Shown here piece after piece: positions 6,729-38,324 of a stretch of 64,000 nucleotides of DNA. The stretch is from Runella rosea. Its GTDB lineage: Bacteria > Bacteroidota > Bacteroidia > Cytophagales > Spirosomataceae. The notes under the pieces were generated by a model that ran no database searches, was not told the origin of the DNA, and was given only the letters and a program-made list of their open reading frames with translations. The stretch covers positions 3,224,001 through 3,288,000 of the forward strand of contig NZ_CP030850.1 of assembly GCF_003325355.1 (NCBI RefSeq), read 5' to 3'. Both the position numbers and the translations under genes were made by a program. Every line of letters starts with the position of its first letter. Positions within the stretch are counted from its first letter, which is position 1.

Positions 6729-6820
6729 GCAGTGTGTCTTTAAGCGGGTTTTTAAACAATTCTAAACTTAAAAGCTATTTGCTATAGCCAGTACTTAAAA
6801 AGTTGTATTTCTAAAATTTA

Positions 6821-6854: not shown

Positions 6855-6883
6855 AGAAATCACTTCTATCTACAAAACATTTA

Positions 6884-8401
6884 TCAATAACCCGAATTCT
6901 GCTTCAACTTATTGTTGTTGCGAATTTCGGCGGTGGGGATCGGAAACAGCAATTCTCTTTCTTTGAGCACGGGGCCGTATGAAAACTTGTGCCCTGCAAA
7001 ATCCTCAAACTTCTTGGTTGTCACGTTAAACGCTTTGCGTAGGCGGGTCATGTCGTACCAAGTTTTGTTCTCAAAACTCAGCTCATGCCAACGCTCTTTC
7101 CAAATCGCTTCTCTGAGTTGCACTTTGGTTAAACCAGCCAAATCGGGTAGTTGAGCACGTCGGCGAATGGCATTCACAGCTTCATACGCCGCTGCCGACG
7201 GGCCATTTGCTTCGTTTTCGGCTTCGGCATAGGTCAACAAAACCTCCGCATAACGCATCATTGTCCAGTTCAGGCCACTGCTTGTGGTGCTGAGTTGGGC
7301 TTCGGTATCGAAGTGTTTGTACAGGTAATACCCTCCCAAATTTCGGGTTTTGGTACGGTCGCTCCGCAGTGAGAAAGAAGTGTAATAAAATTGCTTTTCG
7401 GCCGCTCGTTTGTCTCCATTTTCGTACGATTCTACGAATTCTTTATTGGCAAAAATAGCCCCAGTTTCATCCGTATAGGCCGAAATCCCCTGATTGTACG
7501 GAATAATGGATGTTTGCCAATTGGAAGGCAATACGAAAGCGACATATTGCGCCATGAAAATGTTTTCGCCGATGTTCTTTTTGGCGGGATTACGCAAATC
7601 ATCATACGACGGGAACAGGCTAAATTTGCCAGAATCAACTACTTCCTTGGCCTTATCAGCCGCTTTTTTGTAGTATTCAGCGCCTTTTTGCAAGGGGAAT
7701 CCTGCCATGGTAAGGTATACACTCGACAGCAGCGACTTAACCGCCCCTAAAGACACACGCCCAGTGGCATCTGTGTACGGCAAGCCGGAAGCTTCCGCCT
7801 CAATCAAATCGGCTACGATTACCTTATATACCTCTTCTGGCGATACCTGCGTAGGATATAAATCGGGCGATTTCAAATCAACTGGCTCTGTAATGAGCGA
7901 AATGTTGCCGAAGATGCGCACCAAATCATAGTAATACAACGCCCGCAGGAATCGTGCTTCGCCCAAATAACGCTTCTTAGCGGCTTCATTCATCGAAATG
8001 CCTGGTATTTTCGCAATCGCTAGATTTGCGTTGGCAATGCCCCGATAGTGGCTGGTCCAGTACGTGGCACCGTAACCATTGTCTGAGTTATTAACCAGAT
8101 TTCGCACAAAAATGCTGTTTTGGGCCTGCCCCAACTCGGTGTTGGCCAAGCCAGTGGCAAATTCCAGCATCATCCATGGCGCGCCGCCAAATCCACCTCC
8201 CAACACGTTCCGAAGGTTTTCGTAAATGGAGTTCACCACACTTTCGGCGTGTTCGGGCTTGGTGAAATAGTTTTCCATCGTAAAATTTGAACGATCGGGC
8301 TCTTCTAAAAAATCGGAGCAGCTCACCCCGCACAAAACCAATGTTCCGCTCAGTATCAGTTGACTAAAAAACTTTATAGTGTATTTCATTAGAGTATCCA
8401 T
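6884..8401 (-). CDS. SusD/RagB-family nutrient-binding lipoprotein (locus A)
   Basis: This is a 505-residue outer-membrane lipoprotein that caps the partner SusC transporter and captures ligand. The lipobox is LCGVSC, with lipidated Cys28 followed by SDFLEEP, the usual SusD opening. Typical family segments follow: EARFLRALYYYDLVRIFGNI (TPR region), LLTYAEAENEANGP, AVNAIRRRAQLPDL, and a C-terminal LKERELLFPIPTAEI...NNNKLKQNSGY. An alternative start four codons in (8389) also leaves a good signal peptide and may be the true one. It begins 17 bp after the susC stop, so the two are cotranscribed. The ligand is unknown. Confidence 0.95.
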   Translation of the reverse strand: MDTLMKYTIKFFSQLILSGTLVLCGVSCSDFLEEPDRSNFTMENYFTKPEHAESVVNSIYENLRNVLGGGFGGAPWMMLEFATGLANTELGQAQNSIFVRNLVNNSDNGYGATYWTSHYRGIANANLAIAKIPGISMNEAAKKRYLGEARFLRALYYYDLVRIFGNISLITEPVDLKSPDLYPTQVSPEEVYKVIVADLIEAEASGLPYTDATGRVSLGAVKSLLSSVYLTMAGFPLQKGAEYYKKAADKAKEVVDSGKFSLFPSYDDLRNPAKKNIGENIFMAQYVAFVLPSNWQTSIIPYNQGISAYTDETGAIFANKEFVESYENGDKRAAEKQFYYTSFSLRSDRTKTRNLGGYYLYKHFDTEAQLSTTSSGLNWTMMRYAEVLLTYAEAENEANGPSAAAYEAVNAIRRRAQLPDLAGLTKVQLREAIWKERWHELSFENKTWYDMTRLRKAFNVTTKKFEDFAGHKFSYGPVLKERELLFPIPTAEIRNNNKLKQNSGY

Positions 8402-8418
8402 TAAAAATTACACAACTA

Positions 8419-11400
8419 TTACAATCCGATGTTTAACCCAACCATAAAAACGCGCGGTTTTGGATAGGCATACAAATCAACTCCTTGGTCAAATGCCGAA
8501 CCAGAAGTTGATACTTCAGGGTCATAGCCTTCAAACTTGGTGTTAAGGAAGAAGTTTTGTACCGAAACAAAGGCTCTCAAACGATTAAGGTGGATTTTCT
8601 CAATCATTTTTGGGGAGAATTTATACGACAAAAGGATGTTTCTACCTCTCAAGAAAGAGCCGTCTTGCACGCGGTCGGTATCGTTGTTGGTGTTATAACC
8701 AGCTGATACAGGGCGTAATTCGGCAATATTGGTATTCTGATTAGTAGGCGTCCATGCGTTCAAAACGGTCTTGAAACTGTTGGCAATTCCTTGGCGGTCT
8801 TCGGCTGAGTGCTTGCTTCTAAACAATACGTCGTTGCCGTACATGAATTGCAAATCAACCATCAACTCCAAATTTTTGTGCGTAAAAGTGTTGATAAAAG
8901 TACCGAAACCATCTGGAATCCCTTTACCGATTACCACGCGGTCGTTGTCGTTGATACGTCCGTCATTGTTTACATCCTGATATTTGATATCGCCTGGCTT
9001 TTTAAGATACTTAGCCGCTTCTGATTCTTCAGCTATGCTCCAAGTGCCCTGGTGCACAAACCCGAAAAATGACCCTACTGGCTCGCCTTCGCGAATGATG
9101 GTTGATCCGCTAAAAATATCCGCTCCGCCCGTAAGCGCAATTACTTTGTTGCGGTTGAAGGAAATGTTAAAGGCTGAATTCCACGAGAAATTGCGGCCTG
9201 CAACGTTGACCGTGTTGATACCCAATTCTACCCCACGGTTTTCCATGCTTCCGATGTTTTGGCTCACCGTCGTAAAACCACTACTTGAAGGTACCGGCGC
9301 GCTCAAAAGCATATCGGTGGTGAGTTTTCGGTACACGTCGGCTTCGATCATGATGCGGTTGTTAAACAGTCCCAATTCTACTCCAGCATCCACTTGGGCC
9401 GTTTTTTCCCAACGCAGGTCAGGATTGGCGAGGCGGTTTACCCCGATACCAATTTGGCGGGCGTTGTTGAAGATCACCGAGTAATTGCCTAAACCAGCCA
9501 ATGCCTGATAGGCCGTAATTTCCGAGTTACCTGTTACGCCATAGCTGGTACGTACTTTGAGGTTAGAGATAAAGGGCACATTTTGCATAAAGTCTTCTTC
9601 AATGACTCTCCACGCCAATGCCGCAGAAGGAAATACCGCGTAGCGATTAGAAGAACCAAACTTAGAAGAACCGTCAATACGCCCCGTGACCGTGAGTAAG
9701 TACTTGTCTTTGAGGCCGTAGTTAATACGTCCGAAGTATGAATTCAGGCCGTATGCACTCGTTCCAGAGGTAGGAGCAAGCGCCACCGCCCCCGCCCCGA
9801 GGTTGTTGAATTGAAAATAGTCATCCTGAAAACGCTGCGCTCTAGCTACAAAATTAAAGCGATCTACGTGCTGCCACGCTAATCCCAACAAGGCATTGAC
9901 CGAGTGAATTTTGTTGATTTTGGTATTATAGGTCAGGTAGTTTTCAAACTGCCACGAATTATGACGGTCGCCCGTGATGGATGCGTCTCCGCCTTGGTTG
10001 CGAGAAATATAATTCAGGTTCCGACCTCCATAATAATCAATACGTTGGTTGATGATGTTGGTCCCCAACGTGGTGCGCAGTTCCAGGCCTTTTGCCAATG
10101 AAATATTGGTATAGATATTCCCCAACATGGTTTGGGTCTTGAGATAATAAAGGCGCTCAGTAGCTACGTGAATAGGGTTGCCACCACCTTCCATACCAGG
10201 GTAGTCTTCATTACCGCCCCAACGGCCATCAGGGTATTTGACTGGAATAATAGGTAGCGCCTCCAATACTTGACGCATAGCAATGATGCCACCAGCTCCG
10301 AGTGGGTCTACCTGACTTTCGCTCTGGTCATTGTAGCTAAGCGTACCACCTACCTTAATCCATTTTTTGATTTGGCTGTCCATCACAAAACGCGCTGAAT
10401 AGCGTTTGAGCCACGATTCTTTCATCAAACCATCTTCGTTGCGGTACCCAAGGTACAAACCGAAATTGTCCCGGGAGTTGCCACCGCTGAACGCAAGTTG
10501 GTGGTTTTGGGTAAACGCTTTTTGGAACGATTCATCCTGCCAATCGGTGTTGTAGAGCGGCTTACCGCTTGCATCAAACAATAAAGGATTGGTACGCTTG
10601 GTCACTGGATTCACGTACTTGCCACCAGCCCAGCCCACGGGATCGTACTTTTGGGCATTTTGGTAGGCAATTTCTTCCGTTCTCAGAAATTCTTCCGAAT
10701 TGAGCAAAGGGATTTTACGGGGCAATGTCCCCACGCTGAAATCCGTATCATAACTAATACGACCTCCATCTTGACTACCACGCTTGGTAGTCACCAAGAT
10801 AACGCCGTTTGCACCGCGTGCACCGTAAATAGCCGTAGCCGAGGCATCTTTTAATACTTCAATGGAGGCGATATCATTGGGATTAATATAATCAATCGGC
10901 GTGCTTCCGTTGGCCAAATCGGTGGCGTTCAAAATCACCCCGTCAATCACGTACAAAGGGTTGTTGGCCACACTCACGGAGGTATTTCCCCGAATACGAA
11001 TGTTGGCACGCCCACCTGGGCGACCTGAGTTAACCGATACATTCACCCCCGTAATACGCCCCCCCAGGGCCTGATTCAAAGAGGCCGACGGGCGCTCCTG
11101 AAGGGTTTCTCCTTTTACGGTTCCCACAGCTCCTGTCAAGTCTGATTTGCGCTGCACACCATAACCCACCACGATTACCTCTTCCAACGATTTGGTGTCT
11201 ACTTTCAGCGAAACATTCAACTGTGTTTGCGCGCCTACGGTCAATTCTTGCGTCAGATAACCTAAAAAACTGAACACAAGCACCGCGTTGTTGTCGGGTA
11301 CTTCAAGGTCAAAACGGCCTTCAGAATTGGTCGTTGTACCGCGCTGTGTTCCTTTCAAAACCACACTCACACCAGGCAACCCAGCATTAGCCTCGTCTGT

Positions 11401-11850
11401 AACAACACCTGATATTTTACGAACCACGGGAGCCGTGGCTTCGATTGGCACTACCTTTGGAGCAGGAGCTGCGGTTGGCGCAGCTTCTTTTTCTGGGGTC
11501 AGAATAATCTGATTTCCAATTATTTCATACCTCAAATGAAGAGGTTTTATTAGTTTACCGAGCACTTCCACCAACGGCTCATTGGAAGCACTGAGCGTAA
11601 TTTTCCGATTGGAAGGAAGCGTAATTGGGCGATACGCAAATCGTATTTTGACCTGCTTTTCAATCACCGTCAACGCCTTCCGTACGTCCTGATTCTCAAC
11701 ATTAATGGTCACTCTCTGCTGGAGTATTTCCTGCGCGCCGGCCTCCCGGGCTAAAGAGATACCCGTAAAGATCAATGCCAACACACATTGTATCAACGAT
11801 ATTTTCATGAGATGATACACAAGGGGTTTAAAACGTACCGTTTTTTTCAT
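8419..11850 (-). CDS. SusC/RagA-family TonB-dependent transporter with STN domain (locus A)
   Basis: This is a 1143-residue outer-membrane importer. After the signal region (to ~40), residues ~45-115 are a secretin/TonB N-terminal (STN) domain, which in FecA-like systems contacts FecR in the periplasm. A carboxypeptidase-regulatory-like domain (ISGVVTDEANAGLPGVSVVLKG, strand pattern to ~215) follows. Then come the SusC hallmark EEVIVVGYGVQRKSDLTGAV, the plug (IRIRGNTSV, PLYVIDGVI, IEVLKDASATAIYGARGANG) and the barrel to the C-terminal VFMVGLNIGL. The STN domain with fecR and sigma genes upstream points to ligand-induced cell-surface signalling. Its leader overlaps a proposed antisense RNA (11877-11983). 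Confidence 0.96.
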   Translation of the reverse strand: MKKTVRFKPLVYHLMKISLIQCVLALIFTGISLAREAGAQEILQQRVTINVENQDVRKALTVIEKQVKIRFAYRPITLPSNRKITLSASNEPLVEVLGKLIKPLHLRYEIIGNQIILTPEKEAAPTAAPAPKVVPIEATAPVVRKISGVVTDEANAGLPGVSVVLKGTQRGTTTNSEGRFDLEVPDNNAVLVFSFLGYLTQELTVGAQTQLNVSLKVDTKSLEEVIVVGYGVQRKSDLTGAVGTVKGETLQERPSASLNQALGGRITGVNVSVNSGRPGGRANIRIRGNTSVSVANNPLYVIDGVILNATDLANGSTPIDYINPNDIASIEVLKDASATAIYGARGANGVILVTTKRGSQDGGRISYDTDFSVGTLPRKIPLLNSEEFLRTEEIAYQNAQKYDPVGWAGGKYVNPVTKRTNPLLFDASGKPLYNTDWQDESFQKAFTQNHQLAFSGGNSRDNFGLYLGYRNEDGLMKESWLKRYSARFVMDSQIKKWIKVGGTLSYNDQSESQVDPLGAGGIIAMRQVLEALPIIPVKYPDGRWGGNEDYPGMEGGGNPIHVATERLYYLKTQTMLGNIYTNISLAKGLELRTTLGTNIINQRIDYYGGRNLNYISRNQGGDASITGDRHNSWQFENYLTYNTKINKIHSVNALLGLAWQHVDRFNFVARAQRFQDDYFQFNNLGAGAVALAPTSGTSAYGLNSYFGRINYGLKDKYLLTVTGRIDGSSKFGSSNRYAVFPSAALAWRVIEEDFMQNVPFISNLKVRTSYGVTGNSEITAYQALAGLGNYSVIFNNARQIGIGVNRLANPDLRWEKTAQVDAGVELGLFNNRIMIEADVYRKLTTDMLLSAPVPSSSGFTTVSQNIGSMENRGVELGINTVNVAGRNFSWNSAFNISFNRNKVIALTGGADIFSGSTIIREGEPVGSFFGFVHQGTWSIAEESEAAKYLKKPGDIKYQDVNNDGRINDNDRVVIGKGIPDGFGTFINTFTHKNLELMVDLQFMYGNDVLFRSKHSAEDRQGIANSFKTVLNAWTPTNQNTNIAELRPVSAGYNTNNDTDRVQDGSFLRGRNILLSYKFSPKMIEKIHLNRLRAFVSVQNFFLNTKFEGYDPEVSTSGSAFDQGVDLYAYPKPRVFMVGLNIGL

Positions 11851-11876
11851 TAGTTTTGATTGTTTTTGTGAATAAT

Positions 11877-11983
11877 TTGAGCAAAAACTCCTCCTTCACG
11901 TCTTTACAGGCGCTTGCTGATCGGTCAAAATCACAGGGAGGCAACGGCATCAGCGGTGTGCGACCACTGCTGATGTTTTTTTT
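11877..11983 (+). ncRNA. Candidate antisense small RNA in the fecR-susC gap (locus A)
   Basis: On the + strand, opposite the susC leader, the order is: a TTGAgCAAAAAC box (11877-11888); CCTCCT (11890-11895) that can pair with GGGAGG (11936-11941); a small CGTC/GGCG hairpin (11899-11912); then an 11-bp hairpin (CATCAGC...GCTGATG, 11948-11975) followed by eight T (11976-11983). The final hairpin is a terminator only in the + direction, where there is no gene. Locus B has an element with the same order and spacing at 36026-36130. No convincing promoter was found, so the 5' end is a guess. Cis-antisense RNAs near susC genes are known from Bacteroides; homology to those is not claimed. Confidence 0.5.
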
Positions 11984-12130
11984 GTCAGGAGAAAAACGAT
12001 GGACTCTTCATAGACATAAAATTGTTAAAAGTTAAAGAAGCATTTTGTTGTTTAGGTAGTATTCTATGTGACAAATGGTGCGTTTTTTTATTAGAAAAAT
12101 ATTCTCTTTTTACTCAGGGCATTTTAAAAA

Positions 12131-13207
12131 TCAACATCCTTTACTGTATATAATCACCTGACCATCAATCAATTTATATCTAGCATCTAGCACTTTACAG
12201 ATTACTTCAAGTTTTTGAAACAAGTTTTCGTCGGTCAGGTTAATGGTCAGGGTGCAGTCTTTGAGTACTTCTTCGTCAAAAACTACCTTTATCCCGTACG
12301 ATTTTTCCAAGGCCTCAAATACCTCCGTAGCGGGGGCCGCTTCAAACACAAACCGGGCCATTTCGACGGGGGGTAACAGTAGCAACGGCGCCTCTACCAA
12401 TACTTTGCTGATGGTGGACTCGCTACGATGAAAAACCGCCTTTTGGTTGGGTGTCAGTACAACACCCTTCACTTCAGGGTCTTGCTGGGCATCGTTCCGC
12501 TCGGCATAGACCGAAACCCGTCCCGACTTTACCGCAACCGTTACATTTGGGTCCTTCTGATATGCCTTTACGTGAAAACTTGTACCTAATACCCTAGTGA
12601 CCAGCCCATTAGAGAACACCAAAAAAGGCCGCTTGGGATTTTTTTGCACCTCAAAAAAAGCACCACCTTCTAAATGCACCTCCCTTTTTGAATCATCGAA
12701 CTCAACAGGGTACTTAAGCCGACTGTTTTTTTCCAGTTTAACAATGCTACCATCCGACAGTTGCAGTAACATGGTTTTGTCGGCTCCGTTGACGGCCTCT
12801 ACCCATTCAGCGGGCGCAGCGGCCAATACCCCAGGAATCTCCAACGGAGTGGAACGTCGCCAAAACAACCACCCCGCCGCAATCAACACCACAAGGGTAG
12901 CCGCGATGGATAGAACAGGTATGTACCAACGCTGAGGTCTGTGCATACGCTCCGTTGACTGCTCATGGAGCGTGTTCTCAATCCGCGCCCAAATCACCGA
13001 AACCGATTGTTTCGCTTCTGGAATAGGACAAATTTGGTTCAACCCCTCAATGAGCCGCCGCGCTTCTTCAATCTGATAATAGCGCTCGGGGCAATCCCTT
13101 AAAAAGCCCTGCCAAAAGGCGTCATTTTCGGCCGTAGGAGAACATACCCATTCCTTAAAGTAGTCATCGGCGGCGAAATCTTCGGCGGTATATTGATAAT
13201 AGTCCAT
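12131..13207 (-). CDS. FecR-family anti-sigma factor (locus A)
   Basis: This 358-residue inner-membrane protein has a cytoplasmic N-terminal region (1-90), one membrane segment at ~94-116 (WYIPVLSIAATLVVLIAAGW), and a periplasmic FecR domain (LQLSDGSIVKLEKNSRLKYP, VHLEGGAFFEVQKNPKRPF, VTRVLGTSFHVKAY). A C-terminal DUF4974 domain (~285-355) has the pattern VFEALEKSYGIKVVFDEEVLKDC. It holds the sigma factor encoded 67 bp upstream inactive until SusC signals. The stop at 12131 leaves a 280-bp gap before susC that contains the candidate antisense RNA. Confidence 0.95.
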   Translation of the reverse strand: MDYYQYTAEDFAADDYFKEWVCSPTAENDAFWQGFLRDCPERYYQIEEARRLIEGLNQICPIPEAKQSVSVIWARIENTLHEQSTERMHRPQRWYIPVLSIAATLVVLIAAGWLFWRRSTPLEIPGVLAAAPAEWVEAVNGADKTMLLQLSDGSIVKLEKNSRLKYPVEFDDSKREVHLEGGAFFEVQKNPKRPFLVFSNGLVTRVLGTSFHVKAYQKDPNVTVAVKSGRVSVYAERNDAQQDPEVKGVVLTPNQKAVFHRSESTISKVLVEAPLLLLPPVEMARFVFEAAPATEVFEALEKSYGIKVVFDEEVLKDCTLTINLTDENLFQKLEVICKVLDARYKLIDGQVIIYSKGC

Positions 13208-13274
13208 CTAGGTTAGTAAAAAAAATAAATTCAAAAAATGGTAGTGGATATAGATTGTAAAGCCTGCCTTACGC

Positions 13275-13865
13275 TCAGGGTATAGTATTGAAAATAAGAA
13301 CACCGATGATTGAAAAAATACGTACTGCTTCGCGCAGGGTTTTGAGGGCGGTATAAATGAATTTACACGCCGATTGATAATTGACGCCCATAATGTGCGC
13401 CACCTCTTCGTTGCTGAAATGATGCGTAAAACGCAAGTCAATGGCCTGCTGCTGGCGGGGGCTCAAGCGTCCGTATCCTTGCTTGAGTTGACGCAAAAGC
13501 TGCTCCTGACTCTCATCTTTGATCAGGCGGCTCTCGCAGGTATCCTCCTCATAGGCCCTATCTATTCCTTCCACACTAACCGATTGATAAAAAACATCCC
13601 GTTGTTGCGCACGGTTGATTTTATTGCGAAGCGACCGGAACAAATAAAACCGAATAGAATCCGTCTCACTGAGGTTGGTACGACTTTGCCACAATTCAAT
13701 GAAAAGATCATGAATACTATCTTCGACCAACTGAACATTCGTCGTTATTTTATATCCATAACTTACTAACTCTTTGGCATACAACTCATAAATGCGCTTA
13801 AATGCACACTGATCGCCCTCCCGAAAAGCGTTCCAAAGGCCATTATTTGGATGATGTGCTGTCAC
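13275..13865 (-). CDS. ECF RNA polymerase sigma factor, FecI-like (locus A)
   Basis: The product has 196 residues. Region 2 spans ~20-95 (AFKRIYELYAKELVSYGYKI, VEDSIHDLFIELWQSR, FRSLRNKINRAQQR) and region 4 ~130-185 (LSPRQQQAIDLRFTHHFSNEEVAHIMGVNYQSACKFIYTALKTLREAV), the helix-turn-helix that reads the -35 element. It belongs to the Bacteroidota sigma-70/ECF group paired with FecR and SusC. Its probable targets are its own locus. The 356-bp upstream region is divergent from the ecsC gene. Confidence 0.95.
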   Translation of the reverse strand: MTAHHPNNGLWNAFREGDQCAFKRIYELYAKELVSYGYKITTNVQLVEDSIHDLFIELWQSRTNLSETDSIRFYLFRSLRNKINRAQQRDVFYQSVSVEGIDRAYEEDTCESRLIKDESQEQLLRQLKQGYGRLSPRQQQAIDLRFTHHFSNEEVAHIMGVNYQSACKFIYTALKTLREAVRIFSIIGVLIFNTIP

Positions 13866-14221
13866 AGAAAAATTGTTAAAAATAGTACACGGCGCTGAAA
13901 ACGTTGATTATGATGGGTACAATGACCTTCTAATATACTAATGCCAGAAAGGGTGGATTTTAATCCTATTTTTTCTAAATATTTTTTAATTTTTTTCATA
14001 ATTACCCCTTATTATGAATCTCAAAAAGACATTCTATCAAGCCTCCCTCTTACGTTATTTTAATGAATAAACGGCTTTGCTCCGTCTTTTGCATCCTGCT
14101 TTGACCTGTATACACCATGGGTACCTTTTAGAAAACACCCACCATGCCATAGGAAATCTATCTTTACATTTTGTTTTTTAGGGGATAATGTGTAACTACC
14201 CCACGCACCAACCCCGTAGCC
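13866..14221. other. Divergent intergenic region between sigma factor and ecsC
   Basis: These 356 bp are AT-rich at 13960-14010 and must hold the promoters for the sigma factor (-) and the EcsC gene (+). No full TTTG-N19/21-TAnnTTTG match, tRNA or convincing small gene was found. A cluster of 6-bp palindromic sites (14108-14128: GTATAC, CCATGG, GGTACC) is present but not interpretable. Confidence 0.4.
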
Positions 14222-14956
14222 ATGACTCCCTACGAAGAACTCGCCCAAAAGGAATTAAACGTATGGCAACGCCAAATGCTGAAAAAGCCTTCGGCCGTCA
14301 ACCGATTATCAAAATCGGCCCAGACTTGGATAAATAACCTCATTCCAGAAAAAATCCACGACGTTATCACCGCCACCATCAAGCAGATGACGCGGGGGGT
14401 GTTGTTTGGGGCTGAATTTATTACCCCCCAACCAATTCCCGCCGTTACATTGGAAGAGCGCGAATCTGCCGTGCAGAAGCGAATCAATTTTTATAAAACG
14501 GCAGGAGCCGCCGAAGGGGGTGTAGCAGGCGCGGGTGGGTTTCTGTTGGCGCTTGCTGATTTCCCACTGTTGCTGAGTATTAAGCTCAAGTTGCTTTTCG
14601 ATATTGCCGCGCAATACGGCTACCCCATCGACGATTACCGCGAGCGCCTTTATATCCTACATATTTTCCAACTGGCTTTTTCGAGTCAGGAGCGCCGCAA
14701 AGAAGTTTATTTACAGATGGTAAATTGGGACGAAAAAAGCAAACAATTTCCCGAAGACATCCACGCTTTCGACTGGCGCACCTTCCAGCAGGAATACCGC
14801 GATTACATCGACCTCGCCAAAATGGCCCAACTTATCCCAGGCATCGGTGCCGCCGTGGGCGTGGTGGTCAACTACCGTTTGATTAACAAATTGGGAAAAA
14901 CCGCCATCAATGCCTACCGAATGCGGTGGACGGAGGAACAAAAATTGATTAAATAA
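14222..14956 (+). CDS. EcsC-family protein
   Basis: This is a 244-residue member of the EcsC family, named after a protein of the Bacillus Ecs ABC-transporter locus; the molecular function is not established. The conserved core is the glycine-rich membrane-associated segment AGAAEGGVAGAGGFLLALADFPLLLSIKL (~100-130), followed by DIAAQYGYPIDDYRERLYIL. A second hydrophobic segment (LIPGIGAAVGVVVNYRLINKLG) lies near the C-terminus. No ABC transporter is nearby. The gene appears monocistronic, converging on the small secreted-protein gene at 15028. Confidence 0.85.
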   Translation: MTPYEELAQKELNVWQRQMLKKPSAVNRLSKSAQTWINNLIPEKIHDVITATIKQMTRGVLFGAEFITPQPIPAVTLEERESAVQKRINFYKTAGAAEGGVAGAGGFLLALADFPLLLSIKLKLLFDIAAQYGYPIDDYRERLYILHIFQLAFSSQERRKEVYLQMVNWDEKSKQFPEDIHAFDWRTFQQEYRDYIDLAKMAQLIPGIGAAVGVVVNYRLINKLGKTAINAYRMRWTEEQKLIK

Positions 14957-14971
14957 AATTAAGAGACGATG

Positions 14972-15027
14972 GCTGTTGGTGGAAAAACACCAACAACGGG
15001 ATGAGTTTTCTTTTCCACCCCAACAGC
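14972..15027. terminator. Possible bidirectional terminator structure
   Basis: GTTGGTG (14975-14981) pairs perfectly with CACCAAC (14988-14994) over a GAAAAA loop. The same left arm, extended to GCTGTTGG, can instead pair with CCAACAGC (15020-15027). The structure fills the gap between two convergent genes. No T run follows either stem, so termination is only suggested by position. Confidence 0.35.
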
Positions 15028-15531
15028 TCACTTAGGCACTTGAGCGTACCGCAGGCATTCTACTTCGTGTTTTAACTGAACGCCTTCTTCGGCAGGAATT
15101 TTAAATTCATCGGTTTGAATGCTAAAACCACCGATACGCTTGTTTAGAAACAAATTCAATTCGCTTTCGTTAATCCGAAAAAGTGTAGTTGACTCGTAGA
15201 AGTTGGTTATTTTGGAAGGTTTTACTCCAATGAGCTGCTGCCGCCGCAAAATTTTTGAGCCATCAGCAAACTGAATACTCAGGTCAACCAACGCCGTATA
15301 AAACGTTGGATAGTAAACCTTTATGTGTACATAATATTTTGTTTCTCCTTTTGACAACGCTTTTTCGAAGTAAATAGGCTCGTCTCTTCTTTTCTCATCC
15401 TCTTTAGGCGTAAAGAATCGGTGCTCACCGTCAAAACTGCTGTATTCATAATGAATCGTTTTTTGGCAGCCATTTTGGGAAGATGCAGGCAATGATAGTA
15501 GCAAGGCAAAGAATAATATACTGTTTTTCAT
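15028..15531 (-). CDS. Small secreted protein of unknown function
   Basis: This 167-residue protein has a clear signal peptide (hydrophobic 4-14, cleavage likely after PASSQ, ~19). The mature part has two cysteines, Cys22 and one near the C-terminus (VECLRYAQ), that could form a disulfide. It alternates beta-strand-like segments (KYYVHIKVYYPTFYTALVDLSI, GSKILRRQQLIGV). I do not recognise a family. It is convergent with the ecsC gene and has no operon partner. Coding character is supported by the signal peptide and by the lack of any overlapping better frame. Confidence 0.7.
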   Translation of the reverse strand: MKNSILFFALLLSLPASSQNGCQKTIHYEYSSFDGEHRFFTPKEDEKRRDEPIYFEKALSKGETKYYVHIKVYYPTFYTALVDLSIQFADGSKILRRQQLIGVKPSKITNFYESTTLFRINESELNLFLNKRIGGFSIQTDEFKIPAEEGVQLKHEVECLRYAQVPK

Positions 15532-15811
15532 AACGTTATTTTACGGCAATTTATAACAAGGATTAAATAAGGACAAAAAGGAAAGGGCATAAATAAGAAA
15601 AATCAAAAATGCAAAACAAAAACACACTGATAATCAGATGATTATTTAGTACTTCCAGCGCTTTTTTCTCCAATTTATTTGTAAACGGCCACGTAGTGCA
15701 ACTATCCTTTTCTGACACTTCAATAAAATCCTTTATTTTGAGACGTATTCCGCCAATAAATGACTCCGCCGGCACGGGATTTTACCAGTCAGATTATCAA
15801 TTAACAGCCCT

Positions 15812-16846
15812 ATGAAACTTGACAAAAAAGAAGCTGCCACCGTTATCAACGCCATTCGTTTTTGGGAAGATTCCCACAAAATATCCCCTGAACTAGCCGA
15901 AGAACTGCGCAACAGCTACGAAGTCCGCAGCTCCAACGTCGACACTATCGCTTGGTACGCTTTTATTTCGGCCGTTTCTTGCGGCCTTTTGGCTTTTGGG
16001 GCGTTGGTGATTGATGAAAAATGGATTGAATTATTGCGCAAACGATGGGAGTTCTCGGAAGCCACTGTAGGCGTGGGTTTTACGCTCGTAGCTGGCGTAT
16101 TTGTATACTTAGCCCGCCGCCGAAAACTCAAATACCCAACTTCCCAAATCAGCAATGAATCTTATACCATTACCATTGCCCTCAGCGTAGCCGTCGCGAT
16201 TGCCTACTGGACCCGCAGCCTGGGCCTTTTCAATGGAGACTACGCTCAACCTTTGCTGATTGCAACCGTCGTTTACGGCTTTATCGGCGGCTTTTTACCC
16301 TCACAGCTTTTATGGGTTGCCATGCTTTTATCCTTGACGGGCTGGTGGGCGGTTCAAATCTACGAATGGTCGGGAGGAGGATTTCGGTTTGCAGGAATGA
16401 ATTATCCGTTGAGCATGACCCTTTTAGGGCTATTGATTTGGGCATCGTCGTGGTTGGTAGAAAAAATCAAACCACTGATTTCTTTCGAGCGCGCCACCTA
16501 TACTTTTGGACTGGTTTTGTTTCTTTTCGCGGCTTGGATGCTCTCCATTTTTGGCAATTACGACGATTTGGGGCGGTGGTCAGCCATCAAACAGGGCACG
16601 CTTTGGTACTGGTCGGCGGGATTTACGGTTGTTTTGGCTGCGCTTACAGCGTACGCATTTAGAAGCAAAAACGATACCCTGCGCGATATTTGTCTGGTGT
16701 TCTTTTTGGCTAATATTTACACGCGATACTTTGAATATTTTTGGGACCGAACCAACAAAGGTATCTTTTTTGCCATTCTGGCATTCTCCTTCTGGTGGGT
16801 GGGGCGCAAAGCCGAGCAATGGCGCAATCAGGAGAAAACCGCCTAA
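15812..16846 (+). CDS. DUF2157 multi-pass membrane protein
   Basis: The product has 344 residues. The N-terminal ~45 residues are soluble and helical (the DUF2157 part that typically precedes the first membrane helix). About nine to ten hydrophobic segments follow: TIAWYAFISAVSCGLLAFGAL, ATVGVGFTLVAGVFVYL, SYTITIALSVAVAIAYW, LLIATVVYGFIGGFL, and so on to FFAILAFSFWWVG. A basic tail ends the protein. The family has no known function. The gene stands alone between two divergent or convergent neighbours and is followed by a strong hairpin terminator. Confidence 0.85.
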   Translation: MKLDKKEAATVINAIRFWEDSHKISPELAEELRNSYEVRSSNVDTIAWYAFISAVSCGLLAFGALVIDEKWIELLRKRWEFSEATVGVGFTLVAGVFVYLARRRKLKYPTSQISNESYTITIALSVAVAIAYWTRSLGLFNGDYAQPLLIATVVYGFIGGFLPSQLLWVAMLLSLTGWWAVQIYEWSGGGFRFAGMNYPLSMTLLGLLIWASSWLVEKIKPLISFERATYTFGLVLFLFAAWMLSIFGNYDDLGRWSAIKQGTLWYWSAGFTVVLAALTAYAFRSKNDTLRDICLVFFLANIYTRYFEYFWDRTNKGIFFAILAFSFWWVGRKAEQWRNQEKTA

Positions 16847-16853
16847 AACACGA

Positions 16854-16896
16854 AAAGGCGCATCGTCGGAGTTTAACCTCCTTCTGATGCGCCTTT
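16854..16896. terminator. Bidirectional intrinsic terminator
   Basis: AAAGGCGCATC (16854-16864) pairs with GATGCGCCTTT (16886-16896), with further GGAG/CTCC-like pairing in the loop. It lies between the convergent DUF2157 gene (+) and the LMASLPT-repeat gene (-). T or A tracts lie in the stem ends, as usual for a shared terminator. Confidence 0.8.
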
Positions 16897-16925
16897 CTAT
16901 CTGATTATATGGAATTGTAGCTTGA

Positions 16926-17420
16926 TTATTCTTCGGTCAAACGAGTGGGTGTGTGATGATATTTGCTATCAAAATGATTGATGTTAGTATCTACCAACAC
17001 ACTCGTTACGGTAGTTGCATCCATCGTTGGCAACGAAGCCATCAATTTCGCGCTGCTGATACGAGCGGCGGGTAAGCTCATTGTTTCATCCACGGTAGGC
17101 AATGCAGCCATCAGTTTCGCGGTGTTCATGCGAGCAGCAGGTGCTTCGATGTTTTCATCTTTGGTAGGCAATGAAGCCATCAGCTCAGCACTCATTGGAT
17201 TGGTTGGCATTTCGTTGGTAGCGTCCAGCGTAGGCAATGAAGCCATTAACGATTGAATATTGAGGACTACAAAAGCGGGAGTAGTTGATTCAACATCCTG
17301 GGTTGGTAACGAGGCCATTAAATGAGCGGCGACACACGATTGCTCTTTTTGGGGTTGTGCTTCTGCAATGGTACTTAATGCTAAAAGACTTAAAGCGGCG
17401 GTTGTGATTAACGATTTCAT
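16926..17420 (-). CDS. Small secreted protein with five LMASLPT repeats
   Basis: This is a 164-residue protein with a signal peptide (cleavage probably after AEA, ~21). The mature part contains the heptad LMA(S/A)LPT followed by xD at residues 34, 58, 80, 103 and 126, with a period of 22-24 residues. Linkers are rich in Thr, Ala, Pro and Met (for example PAARMNTAK, PAARISSAK). A non-repeated tail contains HHTPTRLTEE. There is one cysteine (Cys29). No known family is recognised. It could be a surface filament or adhesin fragment, or a precursor cut into repeated peptides; neither is supported beyond the repeat pattern. It has its own terminator and appears monocistronic. Confidence 0.75.
   Translation of the reverse strand: MKSLITTAALSLLALSTIAEAQPQKEQSCVAAHLMASLPTQDVESTTPAFVVLNIQSLMASLPTLDATNEMPTNPMSAELMASLPTKDENIEAPAARMNTAKLMAALPTVDETMSLPAARISSAKLMASLPTMDATTVTSVLVDTNINHFDSKYHHTPTRLTEE
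17025..17321 (-). repeat. Five-copy in-frame tandem repeat (22-24 codons)
   Basis: Each unit starts with codons for LMASLPT or LMAALPT. The unit cores are nearly identical in DNA (variants of GGCAATGAAGCCATCA on the + strand) whereas linkers vary. This indicates internal duplication with selection on the core. Confidence 0.85.
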
Positions 17421-32647: not shown

Positions 32648-35600
32648 TTAAAAACCGAGACGTGCGCCGAATGTGATGGTTTTGGCTACGGGATACCCAA
32701 ACTGGTCCACGCCGGGACTGATGGAATTGCCGCCGCCAAGGGTGCTTACTTCGGGGTCGTACCACGAATATTTGGTCAAGGTCAATAAATTCTGACCGCT
32801 CACGTACACCTGTGCTTTTCGCATCCATTTGAGCCCCCATCGGGCCGTGGGCAAATTATACGCTAATTGGATATTTTTAACCCGCACAAAAGAGCCATTT
32901 TCTACATACCTATCTGATTCTCTGAACTTTGTATTAACGCTTATTTTGGGATATTTTGCGTTAGGATTAGGGCTTTGCGGTGTCCAGCGATTAGCGTACA
33001 AATCCTTGATTTGGTTTTCACCGAAGTTGAAACTGTTGGCAAAACTGGCCACGTTGAAGTTAAACAGGTCTACCCCCTGCACACCTTGTACAAACAGGTT
33101 CAACTCAAAGTTTTTGAACGAAGCCGACGAACTGAATCCAAAAATGGCATTGGGATTAGGGTTTCCGATGATGGTTTTATCATTGGTGTTGATAATACCG
33201 TCGTTGTTCAAATCTTTGAAAACAATCTCCCCTTTTTCATTCAGTCCATTTTCCTGATACCCAAAGAAAACCCCCACAGGCTGACCCACGCGCACCAAGC
33301 TGACGGGCACCCCAAGCGGGTTTTGCAGGCTGCTGCCAAACACGTCGCTTCCTCCCACCAACTGATTCACTTTGTTGCGGTTAAAAGAAACATTGGTCGA
33401 AATATCCCACTTAAATTCTCCCGAAAACAGATTGGCATCCAGCCCTAGTTCTACCCCCGAATTTTGGATTTCACCAATATTTTGGGTCGTACTGGTGTAG
33501 CCGGCGGAAGTCGGCAACGAGACGATGGCTAACAGGTCTTTGGTATTTTTTTGGTAATAATCCGCCGTCAGACGAATGCGGTCTTGCCAAAAGCCAATAT
33601 CGAGTCCGATGTCGGTCTGGGTGGTGGTTTCCCACTTCAAATCGGGATTGGATAAACTACCGCTCGGAGCGTAGCCAATCGAAAGGTCGTTGCCAAAAAT
33701 GGTTTGATACGATGCCAAACTATTCAGGGTTTGGTACGGACTCAACGCCGTGTTGCCCGTTTGCCCCCACGAAACCCGCAGTTTAAAATCCGACAAAAAC
33801 GACTTCTCTTTCAGAAAATCTTCTTCAATCACCCGCCACGCAAAAGCGGCCGAAGGAAAATATCCCCATTTATTGCTTTTTCCAAACCGAGACGACCCGT
33901 CGGCCCGGTAGCTAGCGGTGAATAAATAGCGATTTTTAAAGGAATAATTGACCCGCCCAAGGTACGAAAGCAACGTCCATTCCGACGCCCCGCTGCCCGG
34001 AATACCCGGCGTAGCGGCTCCCTGCAAGGCATCAGTGGTGAGTACATCGGAAGCAAAACCGCTTCCGCCCGCACTCAACGAATTGTTTTTCTGATTTTGG
34101 TACGTCACCCCACCCGTCAGCGCCAGATTATGTTTTTCATTAAACGAACGGACGTAGTTCAGGATATTTTCGTTCAAAAGGTTGGTTTGTCGAGACGTAG
34201 AAACCGCAGCTGAGCCAGTTGGAGAAGTAGACAGTTTGCGAGTTGAATATTGATCCTGACGACTATTAAAGGTTTCAATACCTCCCGAAATTCGCAACGA
34301 AAGCCCCTTGATAAATTCATAATTGACGGCGGTGTTGGCCAATACGTAATCCCGCACATCTTTGTCGGTACGCTCATTGACGAGCGCAAACGGATTGAGC
34401 AATACGTTGGAGCTGAACGAATACGGAACCACATTGCTATAATCGCCAGATGGCGTAAACGGCGCTACCGTAGGAGGAGCCACCAAAATAGCAGAAAGCG
34501 CTCCGTTGCCCCGGTTGCTGTTTTCGCCATCGATACGCCCTTGATTGAGTCGGCTCAAAATGGTACTGAAGTCAAAGGTCAACTTATCACTTACGCGGTG
34601 ATTGATGTTGCCCCGAATGGTTCCTTTTTTGTAACTTGAGTTGGGAACAATTCCCTCCTGCGACAGTAAATTCCCCGAAAATGAATACTGCATGCGCTCG
34701 GTACCGCCCGAGAAAGTCAGTCCGTGGTTTTGAATGGGAGCGTTTCGGAGCAATTCCTTCTGCCAATTAGTGCCTTCGCCAAACCCATTGATTTCATCTT
34801 GCGTAAAATAAGGTTTCACTCCATCATTGGTGGCGCGCTCGTTGGCGATTTCGGCCATTTCGCGGGCGTTCATCATTTCAATCAGTTTTGTGGGTGATTG
34901 AGTTCCGTAAAAGCTTTCCACATCCACCTGACTTTTACCCGCTTTGCCTTTTTTGGTGGTCACAATCACAACCCCATTGGCTCCACGCGAACCGTAAATG
35001 GCCGTGGCTGAGGCATCTTTCAACACTTCCATGGATTCAATATCGGAAGGGTTGAGCGCCGCAAGGCTTCCCGAAAGCGCAAAACCGTCAACTACGTATA
35101 GGGGTTCATTGCTGGCTCTCAGCGAATTACCACCTCTAATCCGCACTGAAATATTAGAGCCGGGCGCGCCCGAGTTCTGACTTACCTGCACCCCCGCCAC
35201 ACGTCCCTGCATTCCCTGCACGGGAGTCGTAATCGGGAATGACGTAATGTCTTTTGCTTTTACCGAAGCCACGGAGCCCGTCAAATCACTTTTTCTGACC
35301 TGTCCGTAGCCCACCACCACCACTTCGCTGAGGGCTTTAATGTCGGTTTTGAGCGAAACATCAAGTGCGGTGCGATTGCCTACCACGATTTCTTGCGGCT
35401 CGTAACCCACAAAACTAAACACCAATACCGCTGCCGATTCGCCATCGGGCAGTGCAATGGAATATTCGCCGTCGCCGTTGGTTGAGGTACCGCGCTGCGT
35501 TCCTTTGAGCAAAATACTTACCCCAGGCAGCCCATCCCCTTTTTCGGCGTCAATCACTCTACCCTTAAGAAGTTTATCGGCGGGTTTTTCTTTCAGCAAA

Positions 35601-35998
35601 GGCTCAGTGCGATCGTTTTCTGGTTCGGTTCTGGGCGGCATCCGGTTGAGCAAGATCTTGTTTCCTACCACCTCATATTCAATATTCAGCGGGCGGAGCA
35701 AGCCTTCCAATATGGTTGAAAGCCGCTCATTTTTAGCCACTAAAGTTACTCTTCGCTTAGAGGAAATAAGCTGAGGGCTGTACATAAAATGCACATCCGC
35801 CACTTTTTCGATGCGTTCGAGGGCGCGTCCAATTTCTTGGTTAGCCACCTGAACACTGATTTTTCGTTCGAGTAGTTCCTGACCTCTGGTATCTATGGCA
35901 TACCCTAGGGAAGTGCACAGAATTGTCAGAAATAATTGGTAACAAGTGATTCGCATGATTTTGAGCAGCAACTTGTTGAATTGTCGATGTTTTGACAT
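32648..35998 (-). CDS. SusC/RagA-family TonB-dependent transporter with STN domain (locus B)
   Basis: The product has 1116 residues with the start at 35998 (MSKHRQFNKLLLKIMRITC). The frame is open 16 codons further upstream, but the internal ATG fits the signal region better and matches the start position seen in the locus A paralogue. An STN domain (~50-120) is followed by the carboxypeptidase-regulatory-like domain (GRVIDAEKGDGLPGVSILLKG) and the SusC hallmark LSEVVVVGYGQVRKSDLTGSV. The plug (VRIRGGNSLRASNEPLYVVDG, SMEVLKDASATAIYGSRGANG) and barrel end at TITFGARLGF. The STN domain predicts signalling to the FecR encoded upstream. Its leader overlaps the second candidate antisense RNA. Confidence 0.96.
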   Translation of the reverse strand: MSKHRQFNKLLLKIMRITCYQLFLTILCTSLGYAIDTRGQELLERKISVQVANQEIGRALERIEKVADVHFMYSPQLISSKRRVTLVAKNERLSTILEGLLRPLNIEYEVVGNKILLNRMPPRTEPENDRTEPLLKEKPADKLLKGRVIDAEKGDGLPGVSILLKGTQRGTSTNGDGEYSIALPDGESAAVLVFSFVGYEPQEIVVGNRTALDVSLKTDIKALSEVVVVGYGQVRKSDLTGSVASVKAKDITSFPITTPVQGMQGRVAGVQVSQNSGAPGSNISVRIRGGNSLRASNEPLYVVDGFALSGSLAALNPSDIESMEVLKDASATAIYGSRGANGVVIVTTKKGKAGKSQVDVESFYGTQSPTKLIEMMNAREMAEIANERATNDGVKPYFTQDEINGFGEGTNWQKELLRNAPIQNHGLTFSGGTERMQYSFSGNLLSQEGIVPNSSYKKGTIRGNINHRVSDKLTFDFSTILSRLNQGRIDGENSNRGNGALSAILVAPPTVAPFTPSGDYSNVVPYSFSSNVLLNPFALVNERTDKDVRDYVLANTAVNYEFIKGLSLRISGGIETFNSRQDQYSTRKLSTSPTGSAAVSTSRQTNLLNENILNYVRSFNEKHNLALTGGVTYQNQKNNSLSAGGSGFASDVLTTDALQGAATPGIPGSGASEWTLLSYLGRVNYSFKNRYLFTASYRADGSSRFGKSNKWGYFPSAAFAWRVIEEDFLKEKSFLSDFKLRVSWGQTGNTALSPYQTLNSLASYQTIFGNDLSIGYAPSGSLSNPDLKWETTTQTDIGLDIGFWQDRIRLTADYYQKNTKDLLAIVSLPTSAGYTSTTQNIGEIQNSGVELGLDANLFSGEFKWDISTNVSFNRNKVNQLVGGSDVFGSSLQNPLGVPVSLVRVGQPVGVFFGYQENGLNEKGEIVFKDLNNDGIINTNDKTIIGNPNPNAIFGFSSSASFKNFELNLFVQGVQGVDLFNFNVASFANSFNFGENQIKDLYANRWTPQSPNPNAKYPKISVNTKFRESDRYVENGSFVRVKNIQLAYNLPTARWGLKWMRKAQVYVSGQNLLTLTKYSWYDPEVSTLGGGNSISPGVDQFGYPVAKTITFGARLGF

Positions 35999-36025
35999 AA
36001 TTTTGGACTTTGTTGGTTTACTGAA

Positions 36026-36130
36026 TTGACAAAAACATCCCCGCACTCGTCAATAAACGGGTGTCACGAAGCCTGAGAAACTTTGGGGAAATTACGGGTC
36101 GGTGATGCGGACACATCGCCGACTTTTTTT
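36026..36130 (+). ncRNA. Candidate antisense small RNA in the fecR-susC gap (locus B)
   Basis: The order on the + strand is: a TTGACAAAAAC box (36026-36036); CCCCG (36039-36043) that can pair with TGGGG (36084-36088); a 7-bp hairpin CACTCGT/ACGGGTG (36044-36063); then a 10-bp hairpin GTCGGTGATG/CATCGCCGAC (36098-36123) and seven T (36124-36130). The box lies 28 bp from the susC start codon and the terminator stem 72 bp from the box. The locus A values are 27 and 71. Stem sequences differ while pairing is kept. The 5' end and promoter are unknown; a structured susC leader on the opposite strand is the alternative. Confidence 0.5.
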
Positions 36131-36284: not shown

Positions 36285-37376
36285 CTACTTACATCCCTTC
36301 CCAGTCACCACAATCTGTGCGTCTATCAGCTCATAATTGGCTTCCAATACCTTACAGATAAGGTGCATTTTTTCCAGCAACGGTTCATCGCCGAGCGTCG
36401 CGGTGAGTTCGCACGCGCCCATGAGTTCTTCGTCGTACACGATTTTTACACCGTAGGCTTTTTCCAACACTACAAATACATCTGAAACTGGAGCCTGACG
36501 AAACTCAAAACTCTGCTGCTGAACGTCGGATAACGCCAATAGCTGCGGTTTTTCAATCAATGAGCGCACCAATCGGCTATCGGCCCGTCGAAAAGTCACT
36601 TGTTGGTTGGGTGTCAGCACCAAGCCTGTCAATTGCCGATTTTTTTGTTTAGCATCGGCCGTGGGGTCTTCTCGCGTGAAAACGGACACTTTCCCCGTTT
36701 TTACAATGACCCGGACTTCCCGGTCTTTTTCGTAGGCTTGCACCGTAAATGAAGTGCCTAGCACCTTGGTTACCAGCCCATTGGCAAACACAAAAAAAGG
36801 CTTTTCAGGGTTTTTAGAGACTTCAAAAAAGGCTTCACCAGACAATACAACCTCCCGCTTATCGGTCTGAAAAATGGTAGGATAACTAATGCGCGTTTGC
36901 GGTTGTAACACCACAGAACTGCCGTCGGAAAGCGTCACTGATTGGGCGCGGGAGGTTGTATTGGTAAATTCAATGAGCTTGACTTCATGCTTAATCCGCT
37001 GAACAACTTCGTAGTAAGGGGTTACTTCTTTTCTAAAATTATTCTGGAAAATCAGCCATCCAGCAAGTGGAATCAACACCACTGCTGCTGCCACACGCAC
37101 CCACGTTTGGCGCCAAAGCGGTACCACCACTGCGCGTTCATCGGCGCGTTGCACAAGCTGCTCGATGGCCTCGTCTACCTCCGCTTCCGAAATCTCTTCC
37201 TGCGCATGATACAATGCCCGAACAACCCGCTTTGCCTGCTGCACAGCCGCGTCTTTTTCGGGGTGCTCCGCTAACCATCGCTCCCAAAAAAGAGATTCCG
37301 CATTTTCCAATACCCACGCCCGAAACGATTCGTCTAAGGCCAACGCCTCGGCGCTGTAGACGGTATAATCAATCAT
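36285..37376 (-). CDS. FecR-family anti-sigma factor (locus B)
   Basis: The product has 363 residues: a cytoplasmic N-terminal part with an acidic helix region, one membrane segment at ~93-110 (VAAAVVLIPLAGWLIF), and a periplasmic FecR domain (VTLSDGSSVVLQPQTRISYP, VVLSGEAFFEVSKNPEKPF, VTKVLGTSFTVQAYEKD). A C-terminal DUF4974 domain contains VFVVLEKAYGVKIVYDEELMGAC. It is the partner of the sigma factor encoded 96 bp upstream and probably receives the signal from the SusC STN domain. Confidence 0.95.
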   Translation of the reverse strand: MIDYTVYSAEALALDESFRAWVLENAESLFWERWLAEHPEKDAAVQQAKRVVRALYHAQEEISEAEVDEAIEQLVQRADERAVVVPLWRQTWVRVAAAVVLIPLAGWLIFQNNFRKEVTPYYEVVQRIKHEVKLIEFTNTTSRAQSVTLSDGSSVVLQPQTRISYPTIFQTDKREVVLSGEAFFEVSKNPEKPFFVFANGLVTKVLGTSFTVQAYEKDREVRVIVKTGKVSVFTREDPTADAKQKNRQLTGLVLTPNQQVTFRRADSRLVRSLIEKPQLLALSDVQQQSFEFRQAPVSDVFVVLEKAYGVKIVYDEELMGACELTATLGDEPLLEKMHLICKVLEANYELIDAQIVVTGKGCK

Positions 37377-37472: not shown

Positions 37473-38099
37473 TTACCCCCACAAGAAGAGCAACATTTTG
37501 GCCAATGAAAACCAATTGGTTTTTAAAGAAGTAAGGGCTCGATGCAGCAGATTGGCCACCGATTGACGATTCATGGTCAAAATTTCGGCGATTTGGTCAT
37601 TAGACAGACCTTCGTAGAATTTCAAAAAGATAATCTCTTGCTGCCGTTTGGGGAGCTTGGCCAAAACCACCTTTATTTTTCCTGCATTTTCTTGAAAAAG
37701 CTCGCTTTCAATCAACGTTGATTCGGCCGAAGTATGGTCTGAGAAAGGTAAATCTTCGTCCAAATCTTCCGATTCGAGCATCCACCGTTCCTGACGAAGT
37801 TTACGAAACAGGTTGTTACGCAATGATTTAATGAGGTAAATCCGCACAAAAGGCGTCTCCGTCAGGTGTTCTCGTCGCTCCCAGAGTTCCAGAAACAAAT
37901 CTTGAATGCAATCCCTGACAATTTCCCGGTCTTTGGTGAATTTGGCGGCGTAATTAAACAACGCCCTGTAATGACTCCGCGAGAGCTGCCCCAACGCGCC
38001 ACTATCACCCTCTTTGAAGCGCTGCCAGAGAAGTTCTTCTTCATTATGTAAGAGGGTGATTTTCAAAAGGGGTATTGTGAGTTTTACCAAAGTTGACAT
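37473..38099 (-). CDS. ECF RNA polymerase sigma factor, FecI-like (locus B)
   Basis: The product has 208 residues from the ATG at 38099 (MSTLVKLTIP); the frame allows an upstream start at 38147, and the choice is uncertain. Region 2: ALGQLSRSHYRALFNYAAKF, VRDCIQDLFLELWERREHL, YLIKSLRNNLFRKLRQE. Region 4: LAKLPKRQQEIIFLKFYEGLSNDQIAEILTMNRQSVANLLHRALTSLK. It is the first gene of locus B and is divergent from the tetR gene. It probably drives fecR, susC and susD of its own locus. Confidence 0.93.
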   Translation of the reverse strand: MSTLVKLTIPLLKITLLHNEEELLWQRFKEGDSGALGQLSRSHYRALFNYAAKFTKDREIVRDCIQDLFLELWERREHLTETPFVRIYLIKSLRNNLFRKLRQERWMLESEDLDEDLPFSDHTSAESTLIESELFQENAGKIKVVLAKLPKRQQEIIFLKFYEGLSNDQIAEILTMNRQSVANLLHRALTSLKTNWFSLAKMLLFLWG

Positions 38100-38324
38100 C
38101 AAATTAACAAACAAACCCTCACAAATCATACTATTTTTTATAAGCATAATACCAATGCAAAAGCATTATACTCTTAGGATATTTTTATAAAACAGCAAAG
38201 GGCATCCACAAATAACTACCCACTTATTCAGAGAATTAAAAAAAAACAAATAATATTATTCCATTATTTCAAAGCATAAAGTATCCTTTTTTTTAGTACA
38301 AAACACAGTTTTTTTTAAACTAAA

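Follow-up and report, generated by a model that had tools for sequence, protein, structure and literature searches.

The window, a stretch of 64,000 nucleotides from the 7.16 Mb genome of Runella rosea, contains two importer loci with the gene order ECF sigma factor, FecR, SusC, and SusD. At both loci, the gap between the minus-strand fecR and susC genes carries a copy of a structured element that is read on the plus strand (Table 1). The SusC protein of the first locus is 98% identical to the SusC proteins of Runella sp. CRIBMP and R. aurantiaca. A sequence-only reading of this DNA had proposed that the element recurs at the second locus with the same order and spacing. The parts do recur there, with a correction to the susC start codon of copy 2: it is most likely the ATG at 35998-35996 (MSKHRQF...) and not the GTG of the longest open reading frame. 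Between the two loci lies a single 3264-aa open reading frame (19318-29112, minus strand), and a terminator scan also found a long perfect hairpin followed by a T-run at 17784-17815 on the plus strand.

The element is real, and both copies are confirmed. From its 5′ side it consists of CAAAAAC or a similar box, helix P1 (mostly CCC with GGG), the small hairpin P2 inside P1, a linker, the terminator hairpin P3, and a T-run. The box, pairings, hairpins, and T-runs described earlier are all found in both copies, and the stem arms indeed differ between the copies yet still pair. In copy 1, the P3 tip reads GTG-TGCGAC-CAC and the eight T occupy 11976-11983, while the box described earlier forms the second arm of a candidate 5′ hairpin, P0. 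The P0 arms (GTTTTTG and CAAAAAC) are invariant and the loop is variable among seven orthologues, three of which are nearly identical. Folded alone, copy 1 has a z-score of -1.81, with 11 of 200 shuffles as stable, and copy 2 a z-score of -2.96, with 1 of 200 as stable. Because each copy is only modestly better than its shuffles, a single copy is not convincing and the case rests on comparison; the comparative sequence evidence for the element is far beyond chance.

Table 1. Genes and element parts at the two loci, in window coordinates; the plus strand is antisense to susC.
Feature	Position	Strand	Content or basis
susC homologue opposite copy 1	8419..11850	-	Plug, CarboxypepD_reg-like domains
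Copy 1 -7 promoter box TAGTTTTG, adjoins susC start codon	11851..11858	+	fits TAnnTTTG
Copy 1 predicted antisense RNA, ~121 nt, predicted start	11862..11982	+	promoter box and terminator
Copy 1 candidate 5′ hairpin P0	11862..11888	+	GTTTTTG 11862-11868 with CAAAAAC 11882-11888
Copy 1 TTGAGCAAAAAC box	11877-11888	+	sequence
Copy 1 P1	11890-11895 with 11936-11941	+	CCTCCT/GGGAGG, one T-G wobble; fold, partner-swap tests
Copy 1 P2, small hairpin inside P1	11899-11903/11908-11912	+	fold
Copy 1 P3, intrinsic terminator	11948..11983	+	11-bp stem 11948-11958/11965-11975, one G-T
Tiny ORF, locus 1	12017-11985	-	MSMKSPSFFS
fecR (anti-sigma), locus 1	12131..13207	-	PF04773, PF16344
ECF sigma factor, locus 1	13275..13865	-	Sigma70_r2, r4_2
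susC homologue opposite copy 2	32648..35998	-	TonB-receptor, Plug, CarboxypepD_reg-like domains; start moved to ATG at 35998
Copy 2 TTG at -33 position	35976..35978	+	inside susC, 22 nt upstream of -7 box start
Copy 2 -7 box TAATTTTG, overlaps susC start codon	35998..36005	+	sequence
Copy 2 predicted antisense RNA, ~121 nt	36010..36130	+	promoter box and terminator
Copy 2 TTGACAAAAAC box	36026-36036	+	sequence
Copy 2 P1	36038-36042 with 36085-36089	+	TCCCC/GGGGA; fold, partner-swap tests
Copy 2 P2, inside P1	about 36043-36050 with 36057-36064	+	fold
Copy 2 P3 terminator	36098..36130	+	10-bp stem 36098-36107/36114-36123, then T7 36124-36130
Tiny ORF, locus 2	36162-36154	-	MI
fecR, locus 2	36285..37376	-	domain matches
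ECF sigma factor, locus 2	37473..38147	-	domain matches

The comparison drew on fecR-susC gaps from eight Runella genomes and other Bacteroidota lineages; 80 of the stretches, from ten genomes, were chosen among the listed places without sight of their sequences. Counting a gap as long from 95 nt upwards, 111 long gaps were compared with 44 short ones; this set omits gaps longer than 480 nt and loci whose next open reading frame stops short of the end of the stretch. The start at L013 was set by hand, and the shuffles for the gap set were mononucleotide shuffles that preserve base composition only. A second Bacteroidales sample comprised 20 stretches, 19 of them usable.

P3 carries the clearest mark of selection. 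Across 52 distinct rows, all nine modelled pairs change on both sides (7.1 expected after shuffling), 96.8% of cells pair, and the covariation score is 0.736, compared with 0.304 when shuffled and 0.055-0.244 when slid; the alignment behind these values, A3, was fitted to P3 and hence leans towards it, and it retains about ten opposite-strand matches. MAFFT failed to align P1, so the covariance model R1 holds P3 pairs only and P1 was tested apart. Among 21 representatives, the longest complementary P1 run averages 5.81, compared with 4.36 (sd 0.21) after partner swaps, and among 35 representatives across genera it averages 5.46, compared with 4.61 (sd 0.17); none of 2000 swaps was as high in either test, and the run reaches at least 5 in 29 of the 35. 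P1 is weaker beyond the relatives of Runella, at 5.14 versus 4.55 with 8 of 2000 swaps as high (21 representatives). The P3 tip conforms to RYG-loop-CRY in 58 of 73 elements and in 1 of 32 other terminators, for which the search settings were slightly stricter than for the P3 elements; an earlier control set, with the tip in 14 of 48, contained susC leaders and was replaced. The tip recurs in 9 of 12 elements of the second Bacteroidales sample and in 0 of 4 from Flexithrix. These comparisons support the view that selection maintains a structure on the antisense strand of susC, with P1 around P2 followed by P3 and its conserved tip. A candidate kissing interaction between an interior GCCAA and the P3 loop was dropped, with GCCAA in 6 of 45 interiors against 2.4 expected.

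Some lineages carry variations on this architecture. By eye, loci L333-L338 of Flexithrix dorotheae (G165) have a large antisense hairpin loop that holds a recurring CCAAA-like motif, and at some loci of this species the T-run directly follows P1 without a separate P3. In a Bacteroidales susC leader from a Tannerella MAG (L246, the same as L267), an antisense TTGCC...GGCAA pairing surrounds a hairpin and is followed by a terminator and eight T.

The antisense strand also carries a candidate promoter at a fixed place. For the housekeeping sigma factor of Bacteroidota, the -7 box is given as TAnnTTTG at -12 to -5 (PMC9723704). Scored as TAnnTTT[G/A] on the antisense strand, overlapping or adjoining the susC start codon, the box occurs at 79 of 111 long-gap loci compared with 2 of 44 short-gap loci and 25 of 322 background ORF starts, a background that still includes some target loci. 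In the second Bacteroidales sample, 12 of 15 long gaps have it, compared with 0 of 4 short ones. A TTG at -33, with its own spacing from the -7 box, is a further element of Bacteroidota promoters. A TTG lies 22-23 nt upstream, within susC, at 29 of 81 loci with the box and 5 of 76 without it; inspection of the sequence found no clear -33 TTG in copy 1. A sigma-70-style scan of 4000-18000 was uninformative, with 22 promoters found and 21.7 expected.

These counts support a -7 promoter box of the housekeeping type positioned on the start codon of susC. Because the position of this box and the terminator define the ends, the predicted RNAs probably run from about 11862 to 11982 and from about 36010 to 36130. 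In each susC leader, the stretch they could pair with would lie between about 12 and 132 nt upstream of the start codon. The length of ~105 nt proposed earlier is corrected to ~120 nt, as the predicted start lies upstream of the box from which it was counted; that box lies within the predicted RNA. The box TTGAnCAAAAAC was itself considered as the promoter and rejected because TAnnTTTG on the start codon is far more constant and because the box was not seen by eye in the inspected gaps of Bacteroidales, Chitinophaga, Sphingobacterium, and Arenibacter.

Terminators and mismatches bear on the strand. Antisense terminators are present in 73 of 111 long gaps and sense terminators in 9, with about 2 expected from shuffles; the finder detects no antisense terminator in the other 38 long gaps, finds one in 2 of 44 short gaps, and finds one in 1 of 7 gaps in the Cytophagales family of G016. 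Since a G-U pair on one strand is an A-C mismatch on the other, the mismatch types indicate which strand's pairs are kept. Read antisense, the inner mismatches of the P3 stem comprise 52 G-U and 2 A-C in a search that tolerated both equally, after a first Runella-weighted pass had given 41 to 7, which points to the antisense pairs as those that are kept. Among 21 representatives, drawn from 42 rows with two wrong-strand matches removed, the ratio is 14 to 4; two of these four A-C mismatches are adjacent to the loop, and a third belongs to a stem that was chosen wrongly. The second Bacteroidales sample has antisense terminators in 12 of 15 long gaps and sense terminators in 4, with inner mismatches of 8 to 0. 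Against shuffles, the 21 representatives have a mean fold z-score of -4.13 antisense and -3.14 sense, and the antisense fold is the stabler in 18 of them. The mismatches flanking P1 (13 G-U and 20 A-C) do not favour the antisense strand and are either against the antisense reading or neutral. Many of the Runella gaps are orthologous, so the terminator and mismatch counts are not independent. Overall, the strand evidence favours the plus strand, antisense to susC: terminator direction, G-U asymmetry, promoter position, and fold stability all back the orientation first proposed.

The sense leader has a conserved feature of its own. On the sense strand, the last ATG 15-70 nt before P3 opens a tiny ORF that closes before P3 in 38 of 43 loci, compared with 16 and 21 in the two other frames; this first set comprised 51 loci, 8 of them without such an ATG. 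In a second set, the tiny ORF closes before P3 in 14 of 15 loci, compared with 6 and 4 in the other frames. This set started from 21 loci, 4 without an ATG and 2 with the fecR stop within 30 nt, and one of its 15 loci, L146, coincides with L093 of the first set. The sense segments upstream of P3 are enriched in AACCC (20 of 49, 3.7 expected) and TATGA (21, 5.8 expected), often as GCCTATG. In many loci, a tiny ORF of about 0-9 codons, or GCCTATG, stands in the susC leader just upstream of the antisense terminator. It may represent a leader peptide that is translated, or else a promoter motif for sense transcription; the spacing within the sense AACC...ATG motif, a candidate sigma-ECF promoter, varies by eye from about 7 to 19.

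Within the host genome, the element follows the long fecR-susC gaps. The FecR_C profile marks 20 places, six of which are receptors and were left out. When the remaining 14 fecR genes were followed to the next open reading frame, the element was seen by eye in all 8 gaps longer than 95 nt (L001, L002, L003, L006, L007, L011, L012, and L013) and in 0 of the 6 shorter gaps (L004, L005, L008, L009, L010, and L015). A further 30 receptors with PF13715 were fetched from 120 matches, with fecR neighbours assigned by coordinates. The promoter box stands at the start codon in 5 of 9 receptors with a neighbouring fecR and in 0 of 21 without one, and 3 of these 21 have some antisense terminator. L349 (G000:C1:5589283) has no fecR neighbour and shows an antisense hairpin with a P3-like tip and eight T at a susC-like start without TAnnTTTG; it may be a form of the element that occurs away from sigma/FecR loci.

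Model R1, built from 15 elements including both window copies, searches for the element without regard to context. Its matches at 11878-11982 and 36026-36130 arise by construction and their scores mean nothing, and its E-values are rough owing to a short calibration. In 148 genomes of the order, 14 have a match at E 0.001 or better, for 43 matches in all. Of the 38 matches outside the host, 26 were examined; after removal of four from the near-identical G012 and a seed in G016, 21 non-seed loci from other genera remained. Of these, 20 are located at a susC homologue start in antisense orientation; fecR flanks the far side in 18 of the 20, and the promoter box is present in 18 of the 21. L157, the one locus placed elsewhere, gave the second weakest match of the 21. 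In the host, all six places with E up to 0.003 are in susC leaders (four are seeds), whereas 0 of the 7 examined among ten weaker places are. In 11 further genomes, weak matches (E up to 0.1) occur in 7. All five weak matches in Chitinophaga (G160) are beside fecR places, and among the Bacteroidales genomes G159, G171, G172, G184, and G187, only G171 has weak matches and the other four have none at E 0.1 or better, so R1 itself does not reach across the phylum. Rfam 15 has no match in the window, and in eight loci it gives three matches up to E 5, all below the gathering cut-offs. Similar predicted elements are present at importer genes under sigma/FecR control in several orders of Bacteroidota.

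Bacteroides is known to encode antisense RNAs opposite susC; traits of the DonS type include a negative effect on susC expression and loci for mucosa-derived glycans. DonS-class RNAs of this genus are described as 78-128 nt long, divergent to susC, and antisense to its 5′ region, and a canonical sigma-ABfr promoter is reported for 52% of the cis-antisense RNAs of B. thetaiotaomicron (PMC7366714). B. fragilis DonS represses its locus by a mechanism described as unknown (PMC11697453), and functional work on this class of antisense RNAs associated with polysaccharide utilization loci has been called for (PMC10994844). The Runella copies share the divergent encoding antisense to the susC 5′ region, their length of ~121 nt predicted from box and terminator would fall within the DonS range, and the Bacteroidales gaps analysed here share the promoter position and terminator. 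Unlike DonS, the Runella element belongs to a host in Cytophagales rather than Bacteroidales and to loci controlled by sigma/FecR pairs. Its P1-P2-P3 fold and tip have been defined, and DonS is likened to it by position and not by sequence. The element fits the DonS class by position, predicted length, and promoter type, an assignment by position and not by descent or function; the elements resemble, in structured form, the DonS repressor RNAs that gut Bacteroides carry, and may be related to them.

Other small RNAs offer partial likenesses. FopS and GibS of B. thetaiotaomicron also act on susC mRNAs near the start codon, and one FopS RNA that binds beside a susC start codon blocks translation, as reported in PMC11697453. 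The FopS RNAs described there are about 65-70 nt, share a common 5′ seed, and act in trans, whereas the Runella RNAs are encoded opposite their presumed target. The pattern of many copies with a common 5′ seed located away from the target is not seen here, as the copies face the susC start. CopA and Sok, from plasmid copy-control and toxin systems, are structured antisense RNAs that face an mRNA leader, which may hold a small translated ORF; they serve as an analogy only, with no sequence or gene relation to the Runella element. As far as searched, the covariation-supported fold, the start-codon promoter, the conserved tip, and a range far beyond Bacteroides are new: the literature covered, which took in few subscription papers, contained no shared fold, start-codon promoter, or tip, and no such RNAs beyond Bacteroidales.

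The best explanation, with a probability of roughly 0.7, is that each copy is the gene for a cis-antisense small RNA of ~120 nt and of the DonS type. The earlier proposal of an antisense RNA family in sigma/FecR-controlled susC loci, with structure kept while sequence changes, is supported by the comparisons. By analogy with DonS, we infer that the RNA represses susC. Transcribed from the -7 promoter on the susC start codon, the RNA would first contact complementary loops of the susC leader, and the resulting duplex would block ribosome loading on susC or expose the mRNA to cleavage. Steady antisense RNA would set a threshold for sigma-driven transcription to exceed; once FecR releases the sigma factor, sense transcripts would outnumber the antisense RNA and susC would be expressed. 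Wherever a long leader lies between fecR and susC, the RNA would thus filter out leaky expression and set a threshold. Some antisense RNAs of B. thetaiotaomicron are reported to correlate positively with their susC (PMC10994844), so repression of susC is not to be taken for granted.

A rival reading has the susC mRNA leader itself structured and working from the minus strand, either as an attenuator, with P1 and a short T-run forming a weak sense terminator, or as a translation switch with the tiny upstream ORF. The sense strand also beats its shuffles (mean z -3.14), the mismatches flanking P1 show no antisense bias, and the sense leader conserves a tiny ORF or GCCTATG. As an explanation of the structure, this alternative, already raised by the sequence-only reading, is superfluous and improbable: terminator direction (73 to 9), mismatch types (52 to 2), the tie of the antisense promoter box to long gaps (79 of 111 versus 2 of 44), and the better antisense fold in 18 of 21 representatives all oppose it. 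The conserved feature of the sense leader stands, and an additional sense-strand function may exist beside the antisense RNA.

The main alternative to an RNA that acts on the leader is transcription alone, in which polymerases converging on the susC start hinder one another and the RNA made is inert. A -7 box on the susC start codon and a terminator that stops antisense transcription before fecR agree with this arrangement, but P1 and the P3 tip are conserved beyond the needs of a terminator (the tip in 58 of 73 versus 1 of 32, and P1 by the partner swaps), which speaks for an RNA acting as RNA and makes interference by itself an unlikely account, on a par with the sense leader. Less probable still, and by some distance, is that the RNA regulates several susC mRNAs in trans, by way of the common tip or a tip-binding protein. 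The tip is common to elements whose stems differ, and the FopS RNAs of B. thetaiotaomicron are described as acting in trans at susC start regions (PMC11697453); against this, the copies lie at a susC start in 20 of 21 non-seed loci, so each is fully complementary to that leader.

Beyond the cis-antisense reading of the two copies, a broader picture can be offered tentatively, as a speculation that is more doubtful than the assignment itself. One old RNA family may extend over several Bacteroidota orders and guard sigma/FecR importers, with the tip as a recognition element that a protein binds or that kisses the leader. Next to the 3′ end of the RNA, a tiny leader ORF, if translated, may couple translation to antisense control and form a sharp switch. 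The fold, the set promoter place, the conserved tip, and the tie to long-gap sigma/FecR loci turn a class defined by position into one that can be searched for, counted, and mutated, and they make its mechanism directly testable.
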